Below, piece by piece: positions 1-57,059 of a DNA stretch of 64,000 bases. Location: positions 1,339,575-1,403,574 of the forward strand of contig JAMWFC010000122.1 in NCBI GenBank assembly GCA_027475525.1. Direction: 5' to 3'. The translations under genes were made by a program, and so were the position numbers. The DNA is from Macrolepiota albuminosa. Taxonomy: Eukaryota > Basidiomycota > Agaricomycetes > Agaricales > Agaricaceae. Numbering within the stretch: position 1 is the first letter of the stretch; every line of letters begins with the position of its first letter. Below the pieces are notes generated by a model. It did no database searches and was not told the origin of the DNA. It saw only the letters and a program-made list of their open reading frames with translations.

Positions 1-233
1 CGCAATCAATTGGCGTGGAGGCAGCTGTGATGCGTGATGCGTGATGGCCAGGAGCGAGCCGCGTGATCCGATTGTTGATCGGGGCTGGTGGCGGCTGATG
101 GCAGTTCTTGATGCGTGTGATGGCAGTGTCGGTAGTCGTGATGGCGGGGCGTGTCCTGTGGGGTCAGAGGGAGGGTCCCGGGTGGTGTTCCAGGGGTGTC
201 CCGGGGTGGATCCGGAGGGGAGGGGTCGTGACA
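1..233 (-). repeat. 3' LTR of A1, inner part only
   Basis: The sequence matches 13480-13706 (the 5' LTR of the same element) with scattered substitutions, and ends with the same TGACA terminus. In the element's orientation it begins TGTCACGACCCC. The rest of the LTR lies left of the window. Confidence 0.9.
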
Positions 234-362: not shown

Positions 363-2008
363 ATGTCGCGTACGCCAACGCATTCTCCGACGCCCCCACA
401 CACTAACAAGGTCGCGCCCCTCATGGCTTGGAAAGCCCGGGACGTGCGATACCGAGCCTGCCTCGACCAGGAGCACGTGGCAACGTGAGTGTCTTCCCAC
501 GTCATCCGCCTATCTTACTGACCTTCCCTATTTCAGAACAACTCAACAATCCTGTCGCAGGTCCCAGCCGGCACTTGGAGCCTGCTCCCAATGCGGGTCC
601 TAGTGTCATCCCACGCCTACCTTTGCACAGATGACTGTCCACCCTCCCTGTCCTCAACCCCGTCCCTGCCCTAGGCTGCCTGCCCCTCGTTTCCGTCGTT
701 CCGGGATGGTGGTGGGGGCCGTTTCTGAAGTTCTGGAGGGTCAGCGTGTTGCGTGGGCGGACACGACGCAGGAGTTGTTTGGGGAGGCCCTGGAGAGGCC
801 CCGGGGTCTACCTGCCCACGCCTGGTGCATGAGTAACGGACCGGTGAGTGCTTTCTTACCTCGGGTCTCGTTGCTGACTTTGGCACAGTGTCTCCACTGT
901 GCTCAACGGACGGTCCCCTGCCTGTTCAAGGTCCCGGGCCCCTCGTCCCGCCAGGACACGTCTGTGTGTGAGGCGTGCCGCCTCAACCACAAGCGATGTT
1001 CCATGTCGGTGCTGTGGAGGGCGCGCTGTGTCTCCCAGGAGCAGGGGTGGCCGCTGGGGGGGGTCACCCGGAGGATGGGGGTCGAGGAGCGGGACTGGGT
1101 GGTGGAGCCGGTGGGGGAGGTGGCCGCCGCAGGTCCAGGGGGGTCGGGGAGCGGGGGTGCCATTCGGGTGGGGGGCTGGAGCCGGCCCATGGTCCTCATC
1201 ACGTGCTGAGTGACCTGGGCCGGGAGGAGCTGGGAGGGGCGCGGGGGGCACCCTGATAAGGAGAAACGGCAGGCATCGCCAAGCCCTTCCCCAGGGCCGT
1301 CGAAGAGGGCACGTCTGCCCTCCAAGACTCCACCCCTGGTTTCCCCACCACGCCTCTCCCCAGCGGTGTTCTCCCCCTTGTCCGGGGGCCCCCAAGATGT
1401 CGACGTCGGGATTCGGGCCGGGCAGGAGCAGGGGGGCCAGGGGGGGGAGGAGATGGCGGTCCTGAGGGGTCTGGAGGGGGATTAGGAGGCCGTGCTCCGG
1501 GATCTCGAGGGGGCCAGGGTCGCTCGGGGGGAGGCCGAGGCCGAGTTGGAGGCTTTGAGAGCGAGGTTGGGGCAGGGGGTGGGGTTCCTGGAGGGGCTGG
1601 TGGAGGCTGTGCATCGGGATGTGGTGGTCATCCGCATGGCCTCACTAAGTGAGTGTTCCCTTCCCTGGACTTGGTGTCCTACTGACGCCCACAGGCTGGG
1701 CCCGGGAGCACCGTTTGCTCCTGGACAGGGCAGCCACGGCACTCGCAGCGCTGCAGGAGGGGCAGCGCCCAGAGGTGACGACTCCCGGGATAGAGCGGGG
1801 CCTCGATTTGCTGGGGCGGGTGGTGTCGGCACACTGGCAGAGGAACATGCCCGCCCCCAGCTCTTGGTTCGAGAGGGTCCTGGATGAGGGTGAGCCTCTC
1901 CCATCCTGGGAGCAGTTGGCGGAGGAGGTACTGTGGAAGCATGGTCCGGCGGGGATGGGGGAGGGGTTCCAAGGCTGGCCAGGGGAGGGAGGGAGTGAGG
2001 GCTGGTAG
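363..2008 (+). pseudogene. Antisense Zn2Cys6-like gene of A1
   Basis: The gene lies on the strand opposite to gag-pol, between the chromodomain end and the 3' LTR. The ATG at 363 is about 115 nt inside the polypurine tract. I infer three introns by GT...AG borders and by comparison with A2: 485-536, 844-888 and 1649-1694. Exon 3 opens with six cysteines spaced CX2CX6C-X15-CX2CX6C, the spacing of a fungal Zn2Cys6 DNA-binding domain. A basic, Ser/Pro-rich stretch (near 1260-1320) and a Glu/Ala/Arg-rich coiled-coil-like stretch (near 1480-1600) follow. The last exon encodes a segment well conserved with A2 and stops at 2008. Compared with A2, exon 1 has lost about 14 nt before intron 1, which breaks the frame, and a TGA follows the cysteine exon near 1207. 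The function is unknown; I infer a nuclear DNA-binding or regulatory protein. Confidence 0.65.
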
Positions 2009-3862: not shown

Positions 3863-3924
3863 ACGCATTGCGTTCCGCCTCGAACGACTTCTTGGGATAG
3901 ACGTCCAGTCAACGGGTGAGGGCA
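3863..3924. repeat. Left copy of ~62-bp target duplication of the Penelope-like element
   Basis: This stretch of gypsy pol matches 7857-7918 with four mismatches over about 62 bases. Removing 3925-7856 plus one copy would rejoin pol at the same point as in A2, so it behaves as a long target-site duplication. Confidence 0.85.
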
Positions 3925-4838
3925 GAGCCTCTTGACTTCGAGCGAAGCGAGAAGGAGAGGGCGATGGTAGGTCTGAGGGGTAGTCGCTTGCTGGCAACTG
4001 GCTGGGGAATTTCCAACTGACCAGTTTTGACTTTTATGAGTCTCATCAGGCCTATTTGCAAGTGTTTGTCTTGTTGCCTAGTTCATGCGCCTCATGGCGC
4101 CAAGCCAGGGCCTTACTGCTGACAACAATAAGAACAATAAAAACAATAGAGAACAATGGAGAACAATTGCCATCCAATGGCAATTTGTGAGCGCCTCATG
4201 TTTGCCACAAGGTTGGCCACACTCTATTGTCATTCAGAATCGTCAGGGAGACCCTATCTTTTATCAGATCAATCAGTGATGTCTGTTGATACAGGTCTCG
4301 GCGCTTATCAACTGTCAGTGATAGACGTGCATTACAATAGCCAAACCAAGGAGAACAATTGCACTGTGATCCGATCAGTTGTTTGGTGATGACCTTGCCT
4401 AGGGTTTAAGCGGGCACATAGAAGTGCTGGTGATTAGGCAGCCGCATATTGCCCCTAAGGGGCTCAGCATATCTCCCCCTGCAATAGGGGTCCTTCATCA
4501 AAGCTACTACGTTGGTTAAACCTGGTTAAGGTAAACCTAGTGTTAGGTTAGGCTGTAATGCATTCTGTTTGTCAGCTAAGAGCCCTTATTACTAAGGGGT
4601 TGACGCACGTTAAGTTAGTGTTAGGTTTGGTATGATCCCAACTACGATGAGGTTAGCATAGTCCTCACCATATCAACGTTCACGTCTACTTACCGTAAGG
4701 CGGCAAGAGGGAACTTGTTGGCTATTTCCGATGTCCTGGGCAGTCTACTCCTCCCTAGCCGGGTAAGAGTACTGTAACCCATTTCTTTCAGAATGGAGCG
4801 GCTCGCCAGGCCCCAGGTGCCAGAGGAGACCGACTACG
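3925..4838 (-). other. 3' non-coding region of the Penelope-like element
   Basis: No open frame of note is present. The stretch 4130-4165 is rich in ACAATA-like short repeats. Around 4505-4640 there are several GTTAGGTT-like words, which are not a regular telomeric array. Confidence 0.5.
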
Positions 4839-7800
4839 TCAATGTAGAAAGATTGTGATGTCATCGTCGGATTGTCTCCGACCACGCTTTTGAGTTTCCT
4901 CCTTCCTTGTCTGAGGTTGTGAAGTCTGGGCTTCCACTAACCGTTGCATGATAATCTTTTTCCATGATGAAGTTAAGTCTCTAAGGTTGATAGTACGCTT
5001 ACAAGACATAATCCATCTGTTGTCTAGTAGATCTAATTTCTGTACATCAGGGACTAGATGAACCAAATCATCAAGGGGCGGCCATGACACTGCAACTACC
5101 AGGGCCACTTCTGGATCCACTTCACGCAGAGCACCTAGATCTAACGTACGGTGAAGTTTGGACTCTTTCCAAGTCATGAGTTTGGCTTTGTTTAACCACA
5201 TTTGCCAGCTACTAGTAATTGTCTTGCCAAGTTCCTTGACATTAAAGAATTCCCAGGTTTGGTTAAACTCTGTTTTGAGTACGAACACACCGTGATTGTG
5301 CTGCTCTTTGACATTGAGTCTGTTGTTCCAACGTTCGGTGAACTGGGATTTAGCCCAGCTTTTAACCAGTTTATCTGGATAGCCATGCGCACGGTATAAC
5401 CCGATAAGGTCTCCTACCGCATCCCTGTAGACTTCTAAGTTACTACAGAGGGTGGCCATCCTGCTCATCTCGCCCGAAAAGGTGCCTTTCTTGACATCTA
5501 ATGGATGGGTGGAGTGCCAGGGGATTCTTTCGTGATGGTTACGTGCTTTCCGATATGGCATATGTTGTAGCTTATTATCATGATCACGATAAATTAACAT
5601 GTCCAGAAACGGCTGAGAGAAAACCGACGTGTTCCATTCTATTGTACAGTTATAGAATTTAACTCTGCTTATGATTGAAATAGCCTCAGCTTCACTAGAG
5701 GCATAAACAATAGCAAGGCAGTCATCTATGTAACGACCGTAGAACAGAACACGGTCGTCATTGAGAATATCAAAGTGCCTCTCAAAGCACAGTCCATAAA
5801 TATTAGCCAGATCTGGGGAGTCTGCAACACCCATTGCAAGCCCCCGGTGCTGGTGGTAGTAAGTACCCCCAAATTGTACAATAAGATTCTCATTTCCTAC
5901 ACGAAGACAGTCGAAGAATAACTTGTATTCGTCAATCAGTTTGTTGCCGAAGCTTTCACGCAGGTTTTCACCTGCAATCATCACGCGTCCAAGATAGTGT
6001 TCTGCATACGCATCCAAGGCATAAGTCTTGGCACGTGTCAGGTCTATGTGCGGATAGAATGCTACGACGTCGCCTGTAACAATGAAGTATTGGCAACCAG
6101 GCCGCAATGAGAGCCTGCTTAATTTTTGCGCTAGATCTTTTGTTCCGTGAATGATACTGGGCGCCGATTGAATAATTGGTTTAAGTCTTTTACTGACATA
6201 TTTAATGGCTGGGTTCTGGATGGCAGAGTGACACGGTATAATCGGTCTGAATTTAACCGGAGTTTTGTGTATCTTAGGAATACCATAAAACTGCGGGATT
6301 TTGAAATTCTCCACAGGGATGACTCCCTTAACACTTGATGGTATGAGATGTCAGAAAAATTTACCCAGTTGTCCGGCGGGGTCAATGTTGTCCGCCTGTA
6401 AAGCAATTGCTTGCATGTCAGTCGCTGTTTTCGTAAGTCTACTTATAGCAATGAGCGGATTGAGGATGTGATAGTCCTCAGTATTAGTAAGTAGTTCTAA
6501 CGATTTTTCTATGATCCAGTCTCGCCTACTAACAGCTATTCCAAGGTTTTTGTCGGTACCCGTGACAATGTAGTCATGGTCGATCAAAAACTTCTTCAGG
6601 TGGTACGTCTTGGGGTCTAGCGAGAAGTATGGACCTTTCGGAGATCGGTCAGGGATGCTGAGGAGCGAACGGTCAACAAAAGACCTCCCTGTGCAAATGC
6701 CACACTGAAGATATGTAGGTAATTGAGGTAGATTAACTTTACGCTCATGTGGTACCTCATAGTCAGGATCATAGTCGGACTCTTCTCCATATTGACGAAA
6801 AGCAAAGTAAAGGCGCCACGTAAGGCACGCTTTGAAGTCTTCCCAAGCTGCTTTTATTAAGTCCTTGTTCAGCTTGGTCGGAAACATGAAGTTCATGCCC
6901 ATGCTTAAATGGAGATGAATGTCGTCAGGCAACGTTACATTAGGCGACGTATGTACAAAACTACAATAACGAGCTGCTGATAATACGTTAAGTGGAACGA
7001 TTGAAAGTAGCGTTCGGATTGCTAATGGACGTGGAATCATAAAATACCAGTCAGGGTATGTAAAGGGGTCATCGTACTTACAAATGACATGCCTGAGAAT
7101 CAGGCTTTCCCCTTCCCCTTCCTTGCCTTTTGCGAAGTCAAGGACTTGACTTTCATCGACTTCTTCACTGTGCTGGGCTTCTTGGACTTGCCAGGGCCGG
7201 TCTTCAATGACAAATGACTGGGGCCACCTTGAGAAGTGGGCGTGGAGCGTTTGCCAGACTTCTTCTTCGGGCCATCCTAGGGATTGAAGAAATAAGAGAG
7301 TGTCAATCAGTAAATGGTCGGAAACTCGTCCAGAAACGGAGAACTCATGACCTAGGTGGAGAACAAACGTTCCCCGCCGTTGATCAATGGATCCCGTTAA
7401 AGTAAGAGTACTCACTTTTCTGGCAAGAGCTTTGCTGACGGCTGAGGAGACCATTTTCTGAATCGAATTGGAAGTGATCTCTCCCATCTCAACGTCGGCA
7501 TCGTTCTTGAGGACGGACTTGGTTTTCTTCTTGGAGGCAGAAGCAAGCTCCTGCGACTCCACCATGATCCAGGCACGAACGCCGATCAGAACCAAGTCTT
7601 CTCGGAGGGTGTTGTATACCTGCTGAGCAGCAGGATCCATGACCCAACCTGAGAGTTGAACCTCTCCGTTCCCATTGTCCGCAAAGATTGGCCGTTGAGC
7701 CGAACCTTTGATGGCTTCCCATCGGGTAGAGATAGTAGGATGGAGGCTGTCCCAGATATTCTGGGGACGTAGGAGGGACTGCAGGTGCGTTACGTCGCAA

Positions 7801-7856
7801 CGCTTTGCAGCGAGCGCAGCCGTAAATACAGCCTTATTGCCGTTGACAGCGGTCTT
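3925..7856 (-). mobile_element. Penelope-like retroelement in A1 pol
   Basis: An insertion of about 3.9 kb encodes a reverse transcriptase of the Penelope-like type, in the same direction as A1 gag-pol. No GIY-YIG endonuclease is visible after the RT, so it resembles the endonuclease-lacking group (Athena and Coprina are the named families; Coprina is known from basidiomycetes). The open frame begins directly at the right junction with its only ATG inside the target duplication, so the element is probably 5' truncated. The ~62-bp duplication on both sides is long for a retroelement. Confidence 0.75.
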
Positions 7857-7862
7857 ACGCAT
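4839..7862 (-). pseudogene. Penelope-like reverse transcriptase, one internal TGA
   Basis: About 1,007 codons are open except for a single TGA at 6353-6351; the frame is identical on both sides. The N-terminal ~430 residues have no motif I recognise. The RT begins with a TDKNLGIAV block, then a PKIHK block, motif A (GDVVAFYP), motif B (GLAMGVADSPDLAN), motif C (YGRYIDDCLAIV, near residue 707) and a FLDMLI block, all typical of Penelope-like RTs. The C-terminal ~150 residues are basic and end in a Lys/Arg-rich tail. No endonuclease domain follows. The TGA is one transition from the arginine codon CGA. The first two residues come from the target duplication, so the true N-terminus is missing or lies upstream in an intact copy. 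Confidence 0.8.
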
Positions 7863-12945: not shown

Positions 12946-13706
12946 TGTCAGGTTCCGCTGAGTCGGGGGCTTTCTGGGAAAGCAATCACCCTTACAATGC
13001 GGACTTGACCCATGGATACTCGGGTGTCTGGAACTCCAGGGCTAGGACTCCAGGGTTCAAGACGTGGACAGGGGTAATCCTGGGAGAGGAAACTTGGTCC
13101 GGGGGTTTTGGGTTGTGAGTAGCTGGGGGATTTGGGTGGGGGTCAAGTCGTGAACTGGAGGTTCTAAGACAAGACCAAGTTAGCAAATTAAAGTCGCGAA
13201 GTGCGTACCAATCTTAGAGCACGCGAGTATTCAAGTGTGCCAGTCGAAGCGTGCCAGTCAATGCGTACCAGTCAAATAGAGGGCACGCAATAATTCAAGT
13301 AACCAAGTGAAAACAGTGTAAGCAGTGTAATATCAAGACTAGCGAATACAATGGGGAGCTATGCTATAAGTACTACGGGGCCGGGTCTCGGGGTTCCGGA
13401 GTGTCTGGGATGGGTTCCGGGAGTCATTGAGTAGCGGGCGGGAACTGTATACCTGGATTGCGCGTGTTGGGTGTGCGATCAATTGGCGCAGAGGCAGCTG
13501 TGATGCATGATGCGTGATGGCTGGGAGCGAGCCACGTGATCCGATCGTTGATTGGGGCTGGTGGCAGCTGATGGTGGTCCTTGATGTGCGTGATGGCGGT
13601 GTCGGTAGTCATGATGGCGGGGCGTGTCCTGTGGGGTCGGAGGGAGGGTCCCGGGTGGTGTTCCGGGGGTGTCCCGGGGTGGATCCAGAGGGGAGGGGTC
13701 ATGACA
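12946..13706 (-). repeat. 5' LTR of A1
   Basis: About 761 bp, starting TGTCATGACCCC and ending TGACA in element orientation. It contains a TTATAG box (CTATAAG on the opposite strand, near 13363-13369) about 25 nt before AGTCTTGATATTA, the likely transcription start. The middle segment has the normal orientation, unlike the inverted one in the A2 3' LTR. Confidence 0.85.
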
Positions 13707-31560: not shown

Positions 31561-32210
31561 GGAAGACGCCCTAAATCGCAGAATCGACTCCGACGTCTTC
31601 TCTGCCCCAGTTTCCCATCTTCGTTCCACGACACTTGCACAGGACACTCTCACGACTTACCTACCCTCCCACTCCTTGCATTTCCTCCTCCTCAACACCC
31701 ACCTCACCCCCTCCGGAATCCCCCTTAACACCCTCGTCGACAGCAGCACCACCGACAACTTCATCAATGAGGCATTGTCTACCTTAGCCCCGGAACCTGC
31801 TCAACGACTCCCGGTCCCAGTACAGCTCTGCCTCTTTGATGGAGATGCCTCTATGGCAGGGGACATCACTCACTTCACGCGTATGCCAGTTACTTTTGCC
31901 AACGGACAGACTCACACTCTCCAGATGCTGATAACCAAACTCCACCCTTCCACACCCCTGGTCCTAGGGCTCCCGTGGCTCCGAGACACCAACCCCCACA
32001 TTGATTGGCAACATCTTACCCTTTGCCTGACCCGGGACCCGATGCCCAACGACCAGCAACTCCCCTTTGACATCCCCCACTCTCCGAATCCTACCCCAAA
32101 AGACAGGCCCCCACCACTCCCCGGACTCCAGTCCCGCTCGTCCCGATCCTTTGTCATCAATGCCAGGCTGGACAGCACCCCGGGACCGATATCGGCCCTC
32201 ATCGACAGTG

Positions 32211-32805
32211 TGTAAGGGCGACCTCTAGAGGCTGTGGCTCAGTCACACAGCTGGCAAAGGGAGATCCAAAGTGTATTAGAATATATACTGACAATATCAA
32301 GGTAGCTACTCACCTGGCAGAGGAAGATCCAAAGAGAACAAGTCTGGGGATTCCCTATGCCAGGTTGGACGCTTCTGGGGCCTCTGAAGCGTGGGAAACA
32401 ACTGTACAGTACAACAAAACCTTAAAAACTCAAAAATTGACTAACCAAACAAGTGTGCAAACAAGGGAGGAAAACTCCGGACTTTAGAAGTCAGAAAGGC
32501 AAACTCCGGCTTATCTAAGCAGCCTGGAGTGGTGCTGAAGGGCCCACACTTGTCTGAGTGATAGCTAAAGAACCAGAGCACCTTAAAGGTTGAGAATAGT
32601 ACTAACAGATAGTGTTGAAAAAGTAGTAACAGCAATGATAGCTAAAGAACCAGAGCACCTTAAAGGTTGAGAATAGTACTAACAGATAGTGTTGAAAAAG
32701 TAGTAACAGCAAAATGAGAGAATGATAGAAGAAATAAGGAAGTGAATGAAAGAAGAGTGAAGAAATAAAGAGTGAAAGAAGAAAGGAATGAGGAGTCCCC
32801 TGACA
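32211..32805 (+). repeat. Solo LTR D, forward
   Basis: TGTAAGGGCG...CCCCTGACA, flanked by the 5-bp duplication CAGTG (32206-32210 and 32806-32810). It is 595 bp including a 77-bp duplication, or 518 bp without it, the same length as the copy at 34448. Confidence 0.9.
32559..32712. repeat. Exact 77-bp tandem duplication 8
   Basis: Bases 32559-32635 equal 32636-32712, inside the solo LTR D. Confidence 0.9.
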
Positions 32806-34447
32806 CAGTGGAGCCACCGGAGTTTTCATCAGTGACGCCCTCGACCTCCCCCACGACTCTCTCGACCAGCCCCTCCGCCTGCAACGCCTCGACGGCACCC
32901 CCTCCTCCTCCGGCCCCATCCAGAGGTCTCACTCGAGACACGTGACCCTGGACAACAACTATGAATTCACCTCCAACTTCTTGGCTGCACGACACGAACC
33001 CCAACATCAATTGGAGGATGCTTACCATGACCTTCCCGGGACCCGAAGACCACCCTTTGACCGCCGTGCACCTCCGGGCCCTAGGGAGCAACCCAATGCC
33101 CGACACTCCTGGGACAACAACCGTGCCCTCCATGCATACGCCACCCACGCCCGTCCGAGCCCGCAAGGCCCCTGATCGACCCCCAAACATTTCTCGGAAC
33201 AAGTACAAAGGGCTGAACTACCCTGGCCGGTCTCAGACACGCGTCAAACCCGCTCCGGCTGATGCGTCCACGACTCCAATCAATCTGAATGCACTCGACA
33301 TTAGGATCATTGGAGCCGCCCCCTTTGCCCGTCTCATGAAGGATGGAACACCCACATTTCAGCTACACACCTTGCCGTCTCTCCCGGAAGAACATCTACG
33401 AGGGGATGCTATTCCCCCGGAAAAGAAAACTGAGGAGCAGATCCTCCAAGAAGTAGTTCCCCCAGAATATCACGAGTTCGCTGACGTATTCTCCAAAGGA
33501 GATGCCAAGGAGATTCCCCCTCACCGCCCCTATGACCATACTATCGACCTCAAAGAAGGAGCCGCCCCCCCTTTTGGCAAGGTGTACAACATGTCGGAAG
33601 TCGAACTCCAGGCCCTCAAGGACTACCTCGATGAAATGCTTGGTAAGGGATTCATCCGACTCTCTGCCTCCGCCGCCGGAGCCCCGGTTCTATTCGCCAA
33701 GAAGAAGGACAGTTTGCTCCGACTCTGCATCGACTACCAGGGACTCAATAGGATCACCAAGAAGAACCGCTACCCACTCCCGCTCATCGGCGATCTGGTC
33801 GATCGACTCTGCAGTGCCAAGGTTTACACGAAAATCGCCCTCCGCTCCGGCTACAACAACGTCCGCATCACCCTGGGACATGAGTGGAAAACTGTGTTCC
33901 ATACGCGGTACAGTCTGTTTGAGTACCTTGTGATGCCTTTCGGAATGACTAACTCCCCTGCCACATTCCAATACTTCATGAACGACATCTTCCACAACAT
34001 GAGTGATGTCTTCGTGATCATCTACTTGGACGACATCCTCATCTACTCTGACTCGAAGAAGGACCACCAGAAGCACGTCCAGCAAGTCCTCAAACGCCTC
34101 CGAGAGCATAACCTCCACGTCAAGCCCGAGAAGTGTTCATTCCACACAGAAGAGGTTGAGTATCTCAGCATCATCGTATCCCTGAATGGCGTTTGCATGG
34201 ACCCCTACAAGGTCGAGGCCATCGTCAACTGGCCACAACCCCGGAATGTCAAGGAAGTACAATCCTTCTTGGATTTCGCTAACTTCTACCGGAGGTTTAT
34301 AGACAACTACTCCGGTATCACGAAACCCCTCAACCGGCTCACATGCAAGGACATTGCCTGGAACTGGGACAGTAAGTGCCAAAGCGTCTTTAACCTGCTC
34401 AAGGAGGCTTTCACAGTTGCCCCCGTACTCCGGCACTACAACCCGGC

Positions 34448-34965
34448 TGTCAGGGGACTCCTCATTCCTTTCTTCTTTCACTCTTTATTTCTTCACTCTC
34501 CTTTCATTCACTTTCTTATTTCTTCTATCATTCTCTCATTTTGCTGTTACTACTTTTTCAACACTATCTGTTAGTACTATTCTCAACCTTTGAGGTGCTC
34601 TGGTTCTTTAGCTATCACTCAGACAAGTGTGGGCCCTTCAGCACCGCTCCAGGCTGCTTAGATAAGCCGGAGTTTGCCTTTCTGACTTCTAAAGTCCGGA
34701 GTTTTCCTCCCTTGTTTGCACACTTGTTTGGTTAGTCAATTTTTGAGTTTTTAAGGTTTTGTTGTACTGTACAGTTGTTTCCCATGCTTCAGAGGCCCCA
34801 GAAGCGTCCAACCTGGCATAGGGAATTCCCAGACTTGTTCTCTTTGGATCTTCCTCTGCCAGGTGAGTAGCTACCTTGATATTGTCAGTATATATTCTGA
34901 TACACTTTGGATCTCCCTCTGCCAGCTGTGTGACTGAGCCACAGCCTCTAGAGGTCGCCCTTACA
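34448..34965 (-). repeat. Solo LTR D, reverse
   Basis: 518 bp, TGTCAGGGGACTCC...CGCCCTTACA, flanked by CCGGC on both sides (34443-34447 and 34966-34970). It interrupts A2 pol between the RT thumb and RNase H. Confidence 0.9.
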
Positions 34966-36378
34966 CCGGCCCTCCCAATTATCCTAGAATGTGACGCCTC
35001 CGACTACACCATCGCTCGGATTCTCTCGCAGATGGGATCTGATGGTGGGGAGCCCTGGCCAGTCGCATTCTACACCCGGTCCATGATTGACGCCGAGCTC
35101 AACTATGACATCTACGACAAGGAGCTCCTTGCCATTGTCAAAGCCTTCAAACAATGGTGAGCGTACCTCGAGGGAGCCCGGCACCGGATCCAGGTCTACT
35201 CGGATCACAATAACCTGCAGTACTTCACCACGACCAAGCAACTTAGTCAACGGCAGGCCCGATGGTCCAAGATCCTCTCGGAGTACGACTTCACAATCCA
35301 GTACTGCCCGGGACGACTTGGAGCTAAACCCAATGCCCTCACCCGCTGACCAGACGTCTATCCCAAAAAGTCGTTCAAGGCAGAACGCAATGTGTTCAAT
35401 CATCGTGTGGTGATCCCTCCCGAACATCTGAATGCCGTACTAATCTTAAACGACGAAGGAACCCTGAGCCAGATCCGCTGCGCCCCCTGAGACAAGTACT
35501 TCACTGATCATGACCCCCACAAACCCCCCGATGGAACCGACCGGGACCCCGCTTTCTCCTTGTCCCCCGACAAAAAACTCCTCCTCCGAGATGGCCGCAT
35601 CTACATCCCAGATCACGCCCAACTCCGCTACGACGTTCTCTGCCAACACCACGACCACAAGCTCCGGGGACACCCTGGAATACGTAAGACCCTCCAGCTT
35701 ATCTCCCGGACTTACTTTTGGCCAGGGTTGAAGAAGGACGTGACCCGCTACATTTGATCATGCAAACCCTGCCTCCTGGCCAAGGTCCCCCGACACTGAC
35801 CATACGGACTCCTGAAACCCCTGCCAGTCGGACGACGCCCCTGGTCCTCCATATCCCTGGACCACATCGTCGAACTCCCGGAATCTGAAGGGTTCGATGC
35901 CATTCTCGTTGTTGTGTGTAGGCTAACCAAACAGGGCATCTTCCTACCCTGCCACACCACGGACACCACCCCGGACTTTGCCCGGCTGTTCCTTGAGCAC
36001 GTCTTTGCCAAACACGGACTCCCGGACGACATCGTCTCTGACCGTGGCCCACTCTTCGTGTCCAAGTTCTGGACTTCCCTGTGTAAGGCCCTTGAAGTAA
36101 AGACTTACCTCTCTACTAACCGATGGTCAAACCAAAAGGGTCAATCAGTCTCTCGAGCAGTACCTCTGACTATACATCAACTACTTGCAGGACAACTGGC
36201 ACACCGAGCTCCCCCTGGCCGAGTTCACCTACAACAACACGCTGCACTCTGCCACCGGGGTATCACCCTTCTTTGCCAACAAGGGATACTACCCCTGACT
36301 GACACTCTCGCTCTGGGACATTCCATCGCATGCCGCCCACAAGGTCACCCGGGATCTCCAGTCTCTTCACAAGTTCTC
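34966..36378 (+). pseudogene. A2 RNase H and truncated integrase
   Basis: RNase H: LECDASDYTIARIL, the KELLAIV block and [14 protein letters not shown] follows AFKQW. The integrase zinc region (HDHKLRGHPGIRKTLQLI, CKPCLLAK) and the core ([20 protein letters not shown]) follow, with in-frame TGA stops. Downstream of the second Asp a short deletion removes the YHPKT block; the Glu position is Lys, as in A1. Sequence homologous to A1 ends near 36378 and jumps to the part after the chromodomain, so the integrase C-terminus and chromodomain are absent. Confidence 0.85.
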
Positions 36379-36673: not shown

Positions 36674-38363
36674 TCAGAACCCCTCCCCCATCCCCTCCGG
36701 ACCGTGCTTCTGCAGTGCCTCCTCCGCCAACTGCTCCCAGGACGGGAGGGGCTCGTCCTTGTCCAAAACCCTCTCGAACCATGAATCGGGAGCGGGCACG
36801 TTCCTCCGCCGGTGTGCTGATACCACTTGCCCCAGCAAGTCAAGGCCCCACTCCACCCCGGGGGTCGTCATGTCCGGGCGCTGCCCCTCCTGCAGTGATG
36901 CAAGTGCTGCGGCGGCCACGTCCAAAAGCAAACGGTGCTCCTGGGCCCAGCCTGGAAATGTCAATGGGAGACCAAGTCCGAGAAGAAGGAGACTCACTTA
37001 ACGAGGCCATGCGGGCCACCACTACATCTCGGCACAGAGCCTCCACCAACCCCTGACTCCCCGGGAGCCCCACCCCCTGCCCAAGCCTCGCCCTCAGGGC
37101 CTCTAGCTCGGCCTCCATTTCCCCCCGGGTGACCCTGGCCTCCTCCAGGTCCCGGATCATCTCCTCCCAACCCTCCTCCAGACCCCTCCTGGCCGCCGCC
37201 TCCTCCCTCATCCCCTCCTTGCGACCCCCCTGCTCCCACCCATCCTGCTCCTGCAAAATCTCAATGTTGTGAGCTAGGAGCCCCCTGGACAAGGGGGAGA
37301 ACTCTGCAGGAGATAGGCATGGGAGAGAGACCAGGGATGGGGTCCCCAGGGGCAGACGCGCCCTCTTGGAGGGCCCCGGGGAGGGACTGGGCGACGCCTG
37401 CCTCTTCCCTTTGTTGGGGCGCCCCCCACGACCCTCGTGACTGCCAGTTCCAGCCCAGGTCACCTGACAGGTGATCAGGACCACAGGCCGGCCCCAGCCC
37501 CCTACCTGGATGACCCCTCGGCCCCCTGACTCCCCACTGGGCGCCTCCGTGGGCGCTGCGGGCACCTCCCCTACCGGCTCCACCGTCCAATCCTGCTCCT
37601 CAACTCCCATCCTCCGGGTGACCCCCCCAGCGGCCACCCCTGCTCCCAGGAGACACAACGTGCCCTCCACAGCGCCGACACAGAGCACCACTCGTGGTTG
37701 AGATGGCAGGCCTCGCAGATAGACGTATCCCGGCGGGACGAGGGGCCCGGAACCTCGAACAAGCACAGGACCACTCGTTGGGCGCAGTGCAAGCACTGCA
37801 CCAAAGTCAGCAAGGAAGACCAGAGGTAGGAGACCACTCACCGGTCCATTGCTCACGCACCAGGCGTGGGCAGGTAGACTCTGGAGCCTCTCCAGGGCCT
37901 CCCCAAACAACTTCTGCGTCATGGCCGCCCACGCAACGTGTTGATCTTCTGGGACCTCTGAAACGGTCCCTATCGCCATCCCAGAACAACAGAAACGGGG
38001 GGCAGGCAGCCTAGGGCAGGGAGGGGGGTGCGGATGGGGAGGGCGGACAGTCATCTGTGCAAAGGTGGGCGCGGGACAACTCAAACAGGACTCCAGAGGG
38101 ACACTGGAACCTGCATCGGGAACAGGCTCTGGGAGCCAGCTGGGACCCGCCTCTGGGGCAGTAATATTGTGTTGTTCTGAAAAAGGAAGGTCAGTAATGA
38201 CAAGCAAGCGGCGCGAGAAGCACTCACGTTGTTGCACAAGCGCCGCCACGTGCTCCCAGTCCAGACGGGCTTGGTACCGTGTGTCCCGGGCTTCCCAGGC
38301 CATGAGGGGCGCAACCTCATTAGTTTGTGGGGGCATCAGGAAATGCGTTGGCGTACACGACAT
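36674..38363 (-). pseudogene. Antisense Zn2Cys6-like gene of A2
   Basis: The best preserved copy. ATG at 38363; introns inferred at 38227-38177, 37841-37796 and 36997-36952, all GTGAGT...CAG. Exons 1-2 encode 157 codons (MSCTPTHFLMPPQTNE start). Exon 3 begins with Cys158 and the cluster CX2CX6C-X15-CX2CX6C (Cys 158, 161, 168, 184, 187, 194). Later come KRQASPSPSPGPSKRARLP, a basic Ser/Pro segment like a nuclear signal, and a coiled-coil-like Glu/Arg/Leu stretch (EEMIRDLEEARVTRGEMEAE). Exon 4 holds the conserved HRLLLDVAAAALASLQEGQR and WFERVLDKDEPLPSWEQLAE. A run of 7 G (8 in A1) near 37620 shifts the frame inside exon 3. The gene converges on integrase; its 5' end faces the 3' LTR. The role is inferred, not shown. 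Confidence 0.7.
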
Positions 38364-38475
38364 GGTTGAGTTTGATGGTAAATTTTTTTTTCGATACGTG
38401 GCAGGTCAGGTGCCAGATCCCACGATTGGACCCCAGTCCGAACCACCGGCTGCGTGTGCCTCGGAGGGTCTTGGC

Positions 38476-38491
38476 ACTGAGGGGGGGGTGA
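38476..38491 (+). other. Polypurine tract of A2
   Basis: A CTGAGGGGGGGGTGA run directly precedes the 3' LTR at 38492, identical to A1. Confidence 0.8.
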
Positions 38492-39202
38492 TGTCAGACC
38501 CGCCCCAGGACACCCCCAAAACACCATCCAGGACCCTCCCTCCGACCCCGCCATCACGACTACCAACACCGCCATCACGCACATCAAGGACCGCCATCAG
38601 CCGCCACCAGCCCCAATCAACAATCAGATCATGCGACTTGCTTCCAGCCATCACGCATCACGCATCACAGCTCCCTCCACGCCAATTGATCGCATGCCCC
38701 ACACACGCGATTCAAGTATACAGTTTCTGCCCGCTACTACAACGGGGAACTACGCTATAAGTACTACGGGACCGGGTCTTGGGTTCTGGGGTGTCTGGGA
38801 TGGGTTCCGGGAGTCATTGATTCGCTAGTCTTGATATTAACTTGGATAACTTTGATTGTTGCATGCCCTTTGCTTGATTGGTATGCACTGACTGGCACGC
38901 TTTTGACTGGCATGCTTGAATAACCGCATGCTCTAAGTTTGGTACGTACTTCGCAACTTTAACTTGCTAACTTGGTCTCATCTTAGAACCTTCGGTTCAC
39001 GACTCGACCCCCACCCAATCCCCCAGCTACTCACAACCCAAAACCTCCAGACTGAGTCCCCTCTCCCGGGATTACCCCCGCCCACGTCTTGAACCCCGGA
39101 GTCCTAGCCCCGGAGTTCCAGACACCCGAGTATCTGTAGATCAAGTCCGCATTGTAAGGGCGTTGCTTTCCCAGAAAGCCCCCGACTCAGCGGAACCTGA
39201 CA
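38492..39202 (+). repeat. 3' LTR of A2
   Basis: 711 bp, TGTCAGACCC...CCTGACA, followed by CCCTT. It contains AGTCTTGATATTA near 38827 but with an inverted block just upstream. Confidence 0.9.
38738..38820 (-). other. 83-bp inversion inside the A2 3' LTR
   Basis: The block 38738-38820 is the reverse complement of 15631-15713 in the 5' LTR, apart from a few substitutions. The flanks on both sides (CCCGCTAC and TTCGCTAGTC) are in normal order. The A1 LTR has the same orientation as the 5' LTR, so the inversion is specific to this LTR. It carries the TATA-like box. Confidence 0.9.
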
Positions 39203-43796: not shown

Positions 43797-44602
43797 TGTA
43801 AGGGCGACCTCTAGAGGCTGTGGCTCAGTCACACAGCTGGCAGAGGGAGATTCAAAGTGTATTAGAGTATGTACTGACAATATCATAATAACTACTCACC
43901 TGGCAGAGGGAGATCCAAAGAGAACAAGTCTAGGGATTCCCTATGCCAGGTTGGACGCTTCTGGGGCTTCTGAAGCATGGGAAACAACTGTACAGTACAA
44001 CAAAACCTTAAAAACTCAAAAATTGACTAACCAAACAACTGTGCAAATAAGGCAGGAAAACTCCGGACTTTAGAAGTCAGAAAGGCAAACTCCAGCTTAT
44101 ATAAGCAGTCTGGAAGCAGTGCTGAAGGGCCCACACTTGTGTTATGCCGGAAAGGATGGTCAGCTTCATAGTGGTCACATGATCATAGACTTAGTTTCAG
44201 ATTGACGCATTACACAACCTCAGTTGTTCTCCTTCATCTTGACGGACACTGAGGTTGTGAGTACTTTGTTTTCTTACTTCTTATTTCTTACTAAACTTAT
44301 TCCGTACAATGCAGTTTTGTTTCGTTAACTAGGTAAAATAATACAGTTGTTCTCCTTCATCTTGACGGACACTGAGGTTTTTTGTTTCGTTAACTAGCTG
44401 TGAGATCTGGCACAACAACTTGTCTGAATGGTAGCTAAAGAACCAGAGCACCTCAAGGGCTAAGAGTAGTACTAACAGATAGTGTTGAAAGAATAGAAAC
44501 AGTAAAATGAAATAATGTCAGAAGAAATAAGAGAATGAATGAATGAAGGGAGAGTGAAGGAATAAGGAGTGAGAAAAGAAAGAAATGAGGAGTCCCCTGA
44601 CA
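43797..44602 (+). repeat. LTR D inserted downstream of B integrase
   Basis: TGTAAGGGCG...CCCCTGACA, interrupted by a smaller LTR (44140-44417). The flanks (CTACC and AGCAG) do not match, so this copy either recombined or its edges are rearranged. On the minus strand it falls just after a GTAAGTGCC splice-donor-like site of the antisense gene. Confidence 0.8.
44140..44417. repeat. Solo LTR E, 278 bp
   Basis: TGTTATGCC...GGCACAACA, flanked by ACTTG on both sides (44135-44139 and 44418-44422). Inside, a word beginning CAGTTGTTCTCCTTCATC occurs twice 122 bp apart, as does TTTTGTTTCGTTAACTAG. The termini are Ty1/copia-like. A diverged relative lies at 58368-58667. Confidence 0.8.
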
Positions 44603-48451: not shown

Positions 48452-48639
48452 GAGTGTTGAAGGGGTCACACTTGTCTGAATGATAGCTAAAGAACCAGAG
48501 CACCTCAGAGGCTGAAAGTAGTACTAATAGATAGAGTTGAAACAATAAAAGCAGTGAAGTGAATGAATGAAAGAAGAAATATGAAAATGAATGAAGGAAG
48601 AAGGAAGGAAAGAGAGAAGAAATAAGGAGTCTCCTGACA
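48452..48639 (+). repeat. LTR D fragment (3' part)
   Basis: Matches the right third of LTR D and ends CTCCTGACA. The start is missing. Confidence 0.75.
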
Positions 48640-49696
48640 GATGCACTATTGCAAACTATGATCCAAGAAATTCTGACATGAAATGTATGATACTGTGATA
48701 GTTCAGTGTGCTTACAGTGTTTTATGTGCCAGATCACCACACACCACGCGTCTGCCATTGCACCCCTGGCAGACACCGACAAAGGGATATGAGTTTTCAC
48801 TGAGAACATCCGTTCAAACCCCCAAGGTTGCAAAAATCCACCTCTCTTTCGGCACATATTCATTTCAACCACTGCCAATGATCCAATTTACCGACCCTTC
48901 CTGGCATAGGGTTCGGTCAATTTGATCTGATTCACAAACACACACCATCGACACATGTCAACACACACCAACACTGCCAGACAACCACCACATAAGCGTG
49001 AGGAACTCACACACCACGGGAGGTCACAACATCCCGTGTCCGTAGGAAAATATCATTGGCCACAAAATCCCCCCCATCTCGAACCCAGATTACATATCTT
49101 TACCTATACAAGTGCCATGTATTTGAATATTGATTTTTGAGCAATCAACACAGTTGTTTTCACTCTAATTCTCAGTTGCTTTAAGCTCTCTCAAGTCTCA
49201 AGAAACATCCTGCAAAATCATCTTATTTCATCACAAGTCTTGTCATTTAATCTTCTCTCTGACAATGACACAGAGATATTTCTAAAAAGGAAATTGCCAA
49301 TGGTGATTGTTGCTGCAACCAAGAGAATTCCAGTCCGAGTGCAATCACTGCTGGCACCAGAACCTGTTTCCATCATCTAGTGACAAGAAAATATGTTATG
49401 CCACTTTCAATGTGCATATTTTCATGGCTAAAAAGTTTGAGACAATGAAAATGCCTTTTCCTTAAGGCAAAGAGTTGCCAAAGAAATGATATGAGACATT
49501 TCTTTGTCACTCCTTCTGGTTGAAACAGGTTCTGACACCAGCAGGGAATGGGGACAAGGCATTGTAGAACATGATCAACCAATCATAAGTTAGAATTTGG
49601 TATGCAGGCAACATCCTGGAAGACAGCACAGTACAAGAATTCATGGAGAATTGTTGATTCCCAATCAAAGATCATGCATCCAATGCACCCCTACAT
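48640..49696. other. Intergenic region downstream of the membrane-protein gene
   Basis: AT-rich, no supported gene. Contains a strong inverted repeat at 49348-49544. Confidence 0.5.
49348..49544. repeat. Foldback (inverted-repeat) element
   Basis: CTGCTGGCACCAGAACCTGT at 49348 faces its near-complement ACAGGTTCTGACACCAGCAG ending at 49544. Inside, GTGACAAGAAA and TTTCTTTGTCAC extend the pairing. The folded transcript would be a hairpin of roughly 200 nt. No target duplication was identified. Confidence 0.65.
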
Positions 49697-52720: not shown

Positions 52721-52732
52721 GGTTATGGGCCC
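52721..52732 (+). other. Half-tRNA primer site of F
   Basis: GGTTATGGGCCC is complementary to the anticodon arm of initiator tRNA-Met (GGGCCCATAACC), the primer used by Drosophila copia. The ATG inside it is also the gag-pol start codon (52725). Confidence 0.75.
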
Positions 52733-55700
52733 CGCTGCCGCGAACGATAATACTTCCGAGACTTTACAGTTTCCGAAGTTCAACGGTACGAACTACCATA
52801 TGTGGGCAGATAATATGAAGTCTGCTCTACTGGCAAAGGGATTATGGGGAGTAGTCTCTGGACGCGAAACTCGCCTGCCTAAACCACCTGCTGAATACTC
52901 CAAATTGTTGGCTCCATCCTGTCTTAAGAGTGACAAGAAGCCTGACTCTCCTTATAAGGAGGGAGACGACTTGATGAAGGCCATGCAGACAAAGGAGTTT
53001 TCAACCTGGGAGCACACACAGGAAAAGTACCTACGCTGGGTCACTAGAGATGATTCAGCTATTGGTCTGATTCGTGCTGCGATGGAGTATACTCAATGTG
53101 AAGCCATCACCGATTACACGAGTTCAAAGAACGTTTGGGACCAGTTACAAAAGAACTACCAGCATAGTGGGATGAATGTCCACTATTATTATCAGCAGAT
53201 GTATGCAAAGCAATGGGACGGAAAATCACCCTTGACCGATCATCTCGGGTTCTATATGGTTATTCGTCCCCGCTTCATTGATGCTGGACATAAAGTTGAC
53301 GACTTTACTATCTTGAATGCTATTCTTCTTTCGCTGCCCAAGACTCCGACATGGGATGTAGTCAAGCAAAGCTTGTTGCTTCGGAGCACTTCTTTGACTA
53401 TTGACATAATCTCAACAGAGTTATTGTCTGTTTATGATAGGCTTACGCTTGAAGATTCCGCCACGACCAAAACCTTGGCTTTCATATCGAAAAAGGAACG
53501 TAATTCGAGTGGGAGTAAAAATGACCACAAATTTGTGAAGAAAAGTTCCAAGCCCAAACGTGAGCCGAAACCTGATGACGTTTGCCACAACTGTGGCAAA
53601 AAAGGTCACTGGCGTCCGAAATGCCCAAAACTAATCAAATCCCGACCTGTCGGTAACGCCAACTTGTCAGTTTTGACACACAATAATGATTCGTGAGAAG
53701 TGGGCAAACTATTGATGGCTACCAACAAAGGTATGCCATCTGGTTTACTTCTCGACAGCACAACATCCAGTCATATGATTGCCGACCGATCATTATTCAC
53801 GAGTTATCACCCTGTCGAAAATCAGCACATTTCAGTCGGTGGAATGAACACATTGACCGTAGTTGGCGAAGGTACCATCTCATTCAGGACTTGTTTACCA
53901 GACGGTGTTATGGATGTTCAACTGCAGAATGTTCTTCACATTCCTGGCTTGGGTGCTAATTTGATCAGTCTCGGTTCATTGCAACGAGCTGGAGCCACTA
54001 TTAATGGCTTAGCCTATGGCATGGGCCTAGCTTGGAATGGAAAGGAATTCCTGCACACTAATCTAATTGGGACAAATGGCACACTTTATCGTATCGCCAC
54101 AATGACCTTAGGAATCGAAGATAATAATGTTGCCTACATTGCGAGTCGACCCACCATGCGATTATGGCATCAACGGCTAGGCCACATCAGTCCACAAACT
54201 ATTAAGGCGATGATAGACTGAGATCTTGTAATGGGAGTTAATCTAAAGTTACCTCGTGAATTCGATCGTCTCTGCAGTGGATGTGCTGAAGGCAAGGCCA
54301 TTAGACCACCCCTTCTTGATCAAAGTCAGACTCAGTATGACAAAAACAAACTGCTCGTCATGGATCTCACTGGACCCATGAGTGTACCCACTTGGGATGG
54401 AAAACGTTACGCTTTAGCTGTAGTTGAAGCTAGCAAGCGCTTTCCAGCTGGGACCCTTCTTGAAAATAAAGAAGAAGCATATTCGGCAGTTCATGATAAT
54501 GTCGCGCGATACGAACGTGAAGGTGGGAAGCTGGTCAAAATCATCCGGACTGACAACGGTACTGAATTCATAAATTCTGTTATGCGAGATTTCTGTAGGC
54601 AAAACAGAATTTTACACCAAACTACGAACCTTTACCATCCTCAGCAAAATGGAATTGCTGAACGCACGATTGCCATCTTAATGGAAATGGTCAGGAGCAT
54701 GTTGCACGCCTCTAAAATGGACTTACGCTACTGGGGTGAAGCGTTTTTATACGCTATCCACATTCGATCCATTACGCCCACTTCCACTCTACAAGGAAAG
54801 ATCCCTTATACAGAGTGGTATGGTCAGAAGCCTGACCTATCCCATATGAGGATTTTTGGTTTCTTGGGATGGGCCCACGTCCCTAAAGAGGTTTGACACA
54901 GAAAATTAGAGTCACGCGCAGTACAAGTAAGAATGCTGGGTTGGTGGAATGATGAGACCAAGGGATACAAACTTGAAGACTTGGAGAATGGAAAACTCAT
55001 TGCGTCAAGAGATGTCGAGTTCTATGAGGATGATACACCTAGTGAGCTTGCACGATTGGATCCGGGACTTACTTCTTCTACCGCAGACGAAATCAATAAT
55101 TTCATTGACACCGCCATTTATCCCGAGTCTAGTCAACCCCTGAGTGTATCTATTCCAAAACCCACCTCCGAATCTGAGGTGGAAACACAGTTGATAGGAG
55201 ATAATTCACAGGTCGACATGTCTGATGACAACTTACCTATCGAGGACTTACAATATCCATCTCCTATACCAGTTTCACCACCAGCATCCCGTGCATCGAC
55301 GCCCTCTGTACCACCAGCTCCCCGGAAAAAGGCTAAATGGTCAAATTTATCTAAACAAGAACCCTCGACTCGAACAAAACGTTTACCTATTAGGTATCAA
55401 CAAAGTGAAGATGAGGACGAACCTGCGAATACTATGGCTTTTATAGCGGTCTTGGGTCCAGGCATTGAAGAAGCATTGAAGTCCCCACAAGCTGAAGGAT
55501 GGCGAAGAGCCATTGAAAACGAATACGATCAGTTATTGCGAAAGAAAGTTTTTGAGGAAGTCGAAGACTTACCCCCTGGTAAGAAGGCCATGGGAAGCAA
55601 GGTCGTTTTAAAAGAGAAGCTTGATGAAAAGGGGAATCATGCTAAGTTTAAAGCTTGCATTGTCGCTCAAGGTTTTTCTCAGATTCCGGGAATCGATTAT

Positions 55701-57059
55701 AACGACACATTCTCTTCAGTCGCGAAATTCACGACCTTACAAATCTTTCTTACCCTTGCTGCTATGCTCGATCTCGAAGTGCATCAAATTGATGTCATTG
55801 GTGCTTATTTAGAGGGAAATTTGGAAGAAGAAATCTATATGAGGGCACCAACCGAAATAGGAAAAACCAAGTATTGGAGGTTACTCAAGGCAATTTATGG
55901 TCTTAAACAGGCTGGCCGTATGTGGAAGGAGAGGCTACACAACATACTAATGTGTCTAGGTTTCAAGCCTTCTCACGCTGACGATTGCCTCTACATTTTA
56001 TGTTCAGGAGGAAAAATCGTGTTGATCATCCTGGTCTACATTGACGACATGGCAATAGCCGGTAAAGACCTCTGCAAAATCTTTTCCTTCAAACGTAGCA
56101 TGAGCAAGGAGTTCGACATCACCGACTTAGGCGAAATTCATTATTTGCTAGGTCTTCAAATCAAAAGGGATCGAGTTAACCACACCATTTACTTGAACCA
56201 GTCCCTTTATGTCGACTCCATACTCGATCGATTTGGCATGTCGTCTTGCCATCCCGTCGCTACGCCTCTCCCTACCAATCATAATCTATCTCTATTGCAA
56301 TCACCTCATTCTGATGATGAGCAGGAAAATTATAAAAAGTACGCTAATGGATTACATTATCTATCCCTAATTGGTTCTCTCCTTTATGCCATGCAAACTC
56401 GTCCGGACATCCAATTTTTGGTCAGTCTACTCGTCCAATTTTCCGAAAATCCGGGTATTCCTCACCTTGCCGGATGCAAACGAGTTCTACGCTATTTAAA
56501 GGGAACCAAGTTGTACTGTTTAAAACTTGGAGGTTTAGAAAGGGGAAGCATTACGCTCGTCGGTTGGAGCGACGCTAACTGGGCCCAAGATCAGTATGAT
56601 CGACGATCCATCAGTGGCTGGTGTTTCGACCTCAATGGAAGTCTTATTTCTTGGTCCTCTTGAAAGCAGCTTGTTATGGCGACCTCCACCGTTGAAGCCG
56701 AATACATTGCTTTGGCTAACTCTACTCGTGAGGCTATATGGCTTCATAATCTCCTGAAGGATCTAGACTTTGAGCAAGTGGGAGCTATGATTATACACAC
56801 TGACAATACCGGAAGTATTGCGTTATCAAAAAACCCCATCGATCATTCACGTGCCAAACATATCGATATTTGATTCCATTTTATCCGTGAACATATCAAA
56901 CAAAACAATATCAAGCTTCAATATATCTCCACTCGTGACATGATAGCCGACGCTCTTACAAAAGCCTTACCAAAGGAAGTCTTCGAAAAACATCGTGCTA
57001 GATTGGGGGTAATGTTACCTATGTTGCCGTCAAGTGGGAGTGTCAAGGAAATTGACTGA
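52725..57059 (+). pseudogene. F gag-pol polyprotein with five internal TGA codons
   Basis: A single frame of about 1,445 codons. Gag (residues 1-323) ends with a CX2CX4HX4C knuckle (CHNCGKKGHWRPKC). Protease: LLLDSTTSSHM, where the usual DSG is DST. Integrase: RLWHQRLGHIS and CSGCAEGK, then DLTGPM, RTDNGTEF and QQNGIAERTI (DDE present). RT: SKVVLKEKLDEKGNHAKFKA, DVIGAYLEG, IYGLKQAGRMW and VYIDDMAIAG (YIDD near 56040). RNase H: WSDANWAQD, then EAEYIAL, then ADALTKALP. In-frame stops at 53694, 54219, 54894, 56661 and 56871 are all TGA; none is TAA or TAG. The final TGA (57057) lies inside the 3' LTR. At least two stops (DI-FHFIREH, WSS-KQ) sit where this family usually has Arg or Lys, consistent with CGA to TGA. 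Confidence 0.9.

Follow-up and report, generated by a model that had tools for sequence, protein, structure and literature searches.

Introduction

Antisense genes of retroelements are already known from plants and from some retroviruses. HBZ of HTLV-1, a bZIP protein of an animal retrovirus, is the product of a spliced transcript that starts from the 3′ LTR. In the passages of PMC11963269 dealing with such genes, HBZ is given as an additional nuclear protein of a retroelement, and antisense open reading frames (ORFs) are placed between pol and the 3′ LTR in the plant elements Retand, Grande and RIRE2; TRP28, which is thought to bind DNA, is encoded by 97% of Retand clusters, and some other antisense ORFs at that site encode Smc domains. 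For fungi, the clade descriptions in PMC2864245 list MarY1, Laccy1, Laccy2, Tcn2, Puccy1/2 and Tcn1 as basidiomycete chromodomain gypsy clades, and the same source describes, for gypsy elements, self-priming of the kind reported below.

Here we examined an antisense gene in a retrotransposon family of Macrolepiota albuminosa, starting from a window, the whole stretch of 64,000 nucleotides analysed (C95:1339575-1403574 of the 100-Mb host genome). The layout is already known from plant elements, and what we describe is a fungal variant of it. As in the Retand lineage of flowering plants, to judge from the portions of PMC11963269 on that lineage, an extra antisense gene occupies the interval between pol and the 3′ LTR and is a constant feature of the family. 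Retand is, however, a plant non-chromovirus with TRP28 (PF04195), whereas the present element has a chromodomain and the product of its antisense gene gave no match to PF04195; the gene has three conserved introns, and the word "intron" is absent from the main text of PMC11963269 on Retand-type elements. The likeness to HBZ lies in the extra antisense gene of a retroelement and in a nuclear product, nuclear entry being predicted in our case; a relationship in sequence would not be expected. The MarY1, Laccy1, Laccy2, Tcn2, Puccy1/2 and Tcn1 elements are likewise fungal chromodomain gypsy elements, but the main text of the clade survey (PMC2864245) never uses the word "antisense". Among the literature matches listed, with subscription journals mostly outside their scope, no fungal element with such an arrangement was found, nor do the relevant parts of PMC5408684, PMC12477816, PMC5542705, PMC2864245 and PMC11963269 describe one.

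We favour, with a probability of roughly 55%, the reading that this is an accessory gene of the element whose product would enter the nucleus as a dimer, bind nucleic acid and regulate the element. A first-pass annotation had proposed that the element possesses its own DNA-binding regulator, captured or evolved, with possible effects on LTRs, silencing or host genes; the part of that proposal that stood is an antisense gene that is stable, selected and, by comparison among copies, spliced, and the part that did not is its assignment to the Zn(II)2Cys6 class. A selected, spliced antisense gene that is constant in a fungal chromovirus family suggests independent origins of such genes and service to the elements. 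With so many, and such divergent, copies, function and coevolution with the LTR sequence can be tested directly, and in a protein without any Pfam family above the cut-off both the cysteine cluster and the C-terminal domain offer new targets.

The antisense gene in the window copies

The window holds two copies of the gene-bearing element, A1 and A2, in both of which the gene lies opposite gag-pol, in the interval from the end of pol to the 3′ LTR. The multi-exon structure first described for them was confirmed, with four exons in each copy, at the following positions.

36674..38363, − strand: antisense gene, copy A2, four exons; reading frame disrupted within exon 3
38228..38363, − strand: A2 exon 1, N-terminal part (MSCTPTH...)
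38177..38227, − strand: A2 intron 1, 51 nt, GTGAGT...CTGAC...CAG
37842..38176, − strand: A2 exon 2
37796..37841, − strand: A2 intron 2, 46 nt
36998..37795, − strand: A2 exon 3, with six-cysteine cluster, NLS-like Ser/Pro stretch and coiled-coil-like region
37655..37795, − strand: A2 cysteine cluster, C-x2-C-x6-C-x15-C-x2-C-x6-C and one further C, 47 aa
36952..36997, − strand: A2 intron 3, 46 nt
36674..36951, − strand: A2 exon 4, conserved C-terminal domain; no Pfam match; low-to-moderate-confidence helical model
38364..38491, − strand: A2 leader, from the 3′ LTR edge to the ATG of the antisense gene, 128 nt
38492..39202, + strand: A2 3′ LTR, TGTCAG...CTGACA, preceded by a G-rich polypurine tract
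32961..34571, + strand: A2 pol, open piece with reverse transcriptase (PF00078)
363..2008, + strand: antisense gene, copy A1, four exons; disrupted by a frameshift and stops
363-484, 537-843, 889-1648 and 1695-2008, + strand: A1 exons
1..233, − strand: A1 3′ LTR, partial (cut by the window edge)
12946..13706, − strand: A1 5′ LTR, followed on the − strand by the self-priming primer-binding site (PBS) TAATATCAAGACT

The introns of A1 measure 52, 45 and 46 nt. The spacing of the six cysteines claimed for both copies is exact in A1 as in A2, the leader is indeed of nearly constant length (129 nt from LTR edge to ATG in A1, 128 nt in A2), and the basic Ser/Pro stretch and coiled-coil-like region said to follow the cluster are present in A2 exon 3. 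Neither window copy is intact; after homology-based splicing their earliest stops are at codons 62 (A1) and 231 (A2).

The gene is a regular part of an abundant chromovirus family

The gene-bearing element belongs to an abundant Ty3/gypsy chromovirus family. In a better copy used for domain assignment (L040 with L063 and L064, on C107), the open pieces of L040 matched protease, reverse transcriptase, RNase H, integrase H2C2, SH3_Tf2-1 and chromodomain profiles above the Pfam cut-off, in the order PR-RT-RNaseH-IN with a C-terminal chromodomain. Gag (23.6 bits against a cut-off of 24.1) and a CCHC zinc knuckle (20.3 against 27) scored below it, and the integrase core PF00665 was absent from the Pfam matches of these open pieces, which are interrupted by a 77-bp duplication. 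Paired LTRs with a 5-bp target duplication were found in two copies. The LTRs of the C107 copy start with TGTCAC and end with CTGACA, their pieces are 97.2 and 99.4% alike, and the copy, flanked by AAAAC, is by our reading nested within other reverse-transcriptase-like sequence. The LTRs of the C77 copy are identical across 787 bp, and its target duplication, CAGGG, was read past a 77-bp near-copy of the LTR end (75/77 identical). These recent insertions carry the antisense gene. One base past the 5′ LTR lies a 12-nt PBS, AATATCAAGACT, complementary to a stretch inside the element's own LTR (at position 408 in an LTR of 857, counted with a 77-bp duplication), and an identical PBS adjoins the LTRs of A1 and A3; we take this self-priming to be of the Tf1 type. 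The closest relatives of pol in the protein database were proteins of Termitomyces sp. T112, with 76 and 75% identity.

Searches of the host genome indicated that the gene is a constant feature of the family. The cysteine-bearing (Zn) exon, as a 66-aa query, gave 747 first-look candidates, the best 150 of which were scored, all with E ≤ 3.3e-26; exon 4 gave 770 candidates and the chromodomain end of pol 1762, with 150 scored in each case. Among the matches listed, at least 91 of the 150 scored chromodomain matches had a Zn or exon 4 match within 4 kb downstream, on the opposite strand in 91/91. The downstream DNA of 18 chromodomain matches sampled from the other 59 contained the antisense gene or its remains in all 18, and the cysteine exon was found at 16 of these 18 loci. 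The view that the antisense gene characterises one gypsy family was thereby borne out, with the antisense ORF in the interval between pol and the 3′ LTR as in the Retand-type layout. The collection of further copies, which the first-pass annotation had set as a test of its proposal, showed that the six cysteines are kept and the splice signals mostly so.

Three short introns conserved among copies

By comparison among copies, splicing of the antisense gene appears to remove three short introns. In a 30-row alignment (made without L016), most rows agree in the positions of the donor, branch-like and acceptor signals. Unique introns were counted from 50 aligned rows, those with lengths outside 38-60 nt or containing N being omitted; for introns 1, 2 and 3, respectively, the donor GTGAGT was present in 25/36, 19/30 and 30/35 and the acceptor CAG in 33/36, 24/30 and 33/35, with lengths of 49-52, 43-48 and 45-49 nt and mean differences of the intron interiors of 0.31, 0.26 and 0.37. 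Splice borders conserved despite many substitutions had been reported from the two window copies, and the larger set agrees, the signals being retained in most introns and their interiors and lengths being variable.

The introns of some copies are in frame and free of stops, and L021 has an unspliced frame of 574 aa. An unspliced reading as the norm was rejected, since intron lengths are not divisible by three in 12/36, 12/30 and 23/35 unique introns, the third intron being 46 nt long and out of frame in 22/35.

We suppose that transcription of the gene would start at a promoter within or next to the 3′ LTR and head for pol, whose chromodomain end marks the other side of the gene, and that the transcript would be spliced at the three introns. 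By their geometry these introns are preserved in retrotransposition, since they are encoded opposite to the genomic RNA, which is not spliced at them. The gene is thus a natural example of introns outlasting retrotransposition through their opposite-strand location.

Predicted protein and proposed function

The predicted product has 539 aa and is identical in eight loci (L022-L028 and L030). Of 30 aligned rows, 8 have it as an open frame, and in 9 at least 500 aa precede a stop. The identity of the 539-aa copies could stem in part from assembly collapse. The six cysteines are kept in all unique sequences holding the exon, whether picked by the gene (41/41) or by the chromodomain (16/16), and a seventh in 39/41 and 14/16, respectively. 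Downstream of the cluster, which starts at residue 156, a stretch such as KGKRRASPSPSPGPSKRAR, which we take to resemble the bipartite nuclear localization signal (NLS) pattern, has matches in 38 of 50 rows; these come in 20 versions, some of them incomplete. From the RARLP motif to the end of exon 3 the sequence is rich in Leu, Glu and Arg and coiled-coil-like (19 unique stop-free versions of 115-130 aa, from 27 of 50 rows), and its sole Pfam match was Cep57_CLD_2, at 18.9 bits against a cut-off of 27.1. L021 and L022 differ by one residue before residue 315 and diverge strongly after it, in the coiled-coil-like region, a pattern that suggests exchange (recombination) between subfamilies. The C-terminal domain encoded by exon 4 had no Pfam match and gave, from two rows, an AlphaFold2 model with four helices and a mean pLDDT of 61; for the cysteine cluster, likewise from two rows, AlphaFold2 gave no usable model (pLDDT 36). 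No Pfam family scored above its cut-off against the whole protein.

The product would accordingly be a protein of about 540 aa whose six-cysteine cluster probably binds zinc and is accompanied by a bipartite-NLS-like stretch, a region resembling a coiled coil and a C-terminal domain that is conserved. By analogy, it most likely enters the nucleus as a dimer and binds nucleic acid, and it would regulate the element's own transcription, silencing or integration. In a bolder form, which we hold tentatively and at slightly less than even odds, a fungal retrotransposon lineage would have evolved its own spliced antisense nuclear regulator with a new type of cysteine cluster, acting in trans on LTRs or chromatin, convergent with Retand and HBZ and kept in well over a hundred copies as it promotes spread.

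The strongest competing explanation, which we nonetheless consider rather unlikely, accepts a true, selected accessory gene and assigns it a role other than in transcription: the protein might, for instance, assist Gag structurally or by binding RNA, target integration or chromatin, or suppress RNA-based silencing. DNA binding is not implied by selection, by the cysteine cluster or by the C-terminal domain, RNA and protein are also possible ligands of cysteine clusters, and the element also has a chromodomain, all of which would suit such a role, but the NLS-like stretch and the weak resemblance to Zn_clus seen in 16/16 copies point to the nucleus and to nucleic acid.

The cysteine cluster and the Zn(II)2Cys6 class

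Zn(II)2Cys6 clusters hold two zinc ions, bind CGG/CCG sites and are usually N-terminal. Like the fungal Gal4-type proteins of this class (PF00172), the antisense product has two CX2CX6C half-motifs, comes from a fungal host and has a coiled-coil-like region downstream; it differs in a 15-residue linker, a sub-cut-off score and the position of the cluster away from the N terminus. The six conserved cysteines of the class are present. It had been claimed that their spacing defines the Zn(II)2Cys6 domain, which does not hold, because the spacing rule as worded in the relevant part of PMC5542705, CX2CX6CX5-12CX2CX6-8C, allows a linker of 5-12 residues and that of A1, A2 and each of 16 aligned copies has 15. 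The PF00172 profile check that the first-pass annotation had called for likewise went against the assignment, since the 47-aa motif of the first copy scored 18.2 bits, the exon piece from A1 11.9 and the whole protein 8.9, all below the gathering cut-off of 21. The cluster therefore resembles Zn(II)2Cys6, yet falls outside the spacing rule and below the Pfam cut-off; it may bind zinc and nucleic acid.

These data bear on whether the element captured a genuine Zn(II)2Cys6 transcription factor from its host, an origin that would be compatible with the explanation we prefer. The six cysteines with the half-site spacing CX2CX6C twice would fit such a capture, as would the PF00172 matches in 16/16 copies at E ≤ 1 (best 0.0011), the alignment of the cysteines with those of five host Zn_clus domains in a profile comparison (E 0.00099 as a single comparison) and the 21 PF00172 matches in the host genome. 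Against it, the probability in that same comparison was 21.7, linker and bit scores depart from the class as described, the cluster begins far from the N terminus, at residue 156, and no host paralogue was seen among the best 150 of 747 candidates. We regard capture from the host as improbable.

Purifying selection on the antisense reading frame

Selection was estimated as dN/dS by the approximate method of Nei and Gojobori (NG86) from unique, stop-free, ungapped segments, using pairs 5-35% different; the five segment sets comprised 32, 32, 38, 18 and 31 unique stop-free sequences, from 50, 46, 51, 42 and 46 found in 51 rows. The measurement, proposed at the outset as a check on the gene, gave medians of 0.13-0.17 in four segments (exon 1, 0.155; end of exon 2, 0.171; Zn exon, 0.173; exon 4, 0.134) and of 0.47 in the fifth, the less constrained NLS segment (0.465), dN in this gene-picked set being lowered both by the selection of loci for their likeness to the A2 Zn exon and by the removal of stop-bearing or low-similarity segments. 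The gene frame had the lowest value of the six frames in all five segments. Medians below 0.7 were confined to it and to one opposite frame (0.29-0.65), which we read as a shadow since it shares third positions with the gene frame; the other four frames gave 0.97-2.5. An overlapping sense-strand gene was considered and rejected, the sense frame exceeding the gene frame in dN/dS in all five segments.

A second set was formed from 18 loci chosen by the chromodomain alone, 16 of which gave each segment (14 unique). In it, pN/pS was 0.21 in exon 1, 0.27 in the Zn exon and 0.45 in exon 4, the segment at which several of these copies have frame breaks. Synonymous differences amounted to 0.40-0.50 and non-synonymous ones to 0.08-0.13 in both sets, except in exon 4 of the chromodomain-picked set (pN 0.22) and in the NLS segment (pS 0.21, pN 0.11), and the divergence of the intron interiors was intermediate between the two kinds of difference. 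The comparison of copies thus supports the conclusion that the antisense gene has been under purifying selection, and selection among dispersed copies would fit a benefit to the element better than one to the host.

That antisense transcription matters as RNA alone, through double-stranded RNA or copy-number control, with the frame a by-product of GC-rich sequence, is hardly credible, for although the mRNA of the gene would be complementary to gag-pol RNA and long open frames occur in other frames of this region too, the dN/dS of 0.13-0.47 in the gene frame, lowest in five of five segments and set against 0.97-2.5 in four other frames and 0.29-0.65 in the shadow frame, and the retention of splice signals and cysteines all speak against it.

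Searches for relatives

A search of the protein database with the 539-aa product returned nothing at E ≤ 1e-3 among 7981 candidates, defined as the proteins sharing most short words and probably swamped by Pro/Arg-rich ones, and residues 112-228 gave none at E ≤ 1 among 163 candidates. With pol as a control query, 7972 proteins reached E ≤ 1e-30, those of Termitomyces sp. T112 on top, so the database does include agaric proteins; relatives in other genomes could be hidden by repeat-masked annotation. In viral contigs, 36 pattern matches to the gene and 2 to pol were obtained, of which 0 were confirmed in either case, and the best PDB matches had E values of 0.24 (profile) and 0.26 (single protein).

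Other repeats in the window

Tandem duplications with a 77-base offset (≥70 identical) occur 12 times in the window, at 3098, 8483, 10989, 12232, 12597, 22318, 25211, 32559, 42673, 46122, 61940 and 63506, with others in L039 and L040. Their appearance suggests assembly-graph joins; as they shift reading frames, the copies may be less damaged than they look.

Copy A1 is interrupted at 3924-7857 by an element with two long ORFs on the − strand (491 and 598 aa, no Pfam matches); the 491-aa ORF has the reverse-transcriptase-like motifs PKIHK...RPI and YIDD, by which we presume it to be Penelope-like. Within A2 pol, a repeat some 600 bases long has inserted twice, in opposite orientations (32210-32805 and 34448-34966), with arms 98-99% alike, and related copies lie near 43797-44602 and 48454-48640. 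A copia-type element, its gag and RVT_2 reverse transcriptase encoded by long open frames, occupies 52725-56663.
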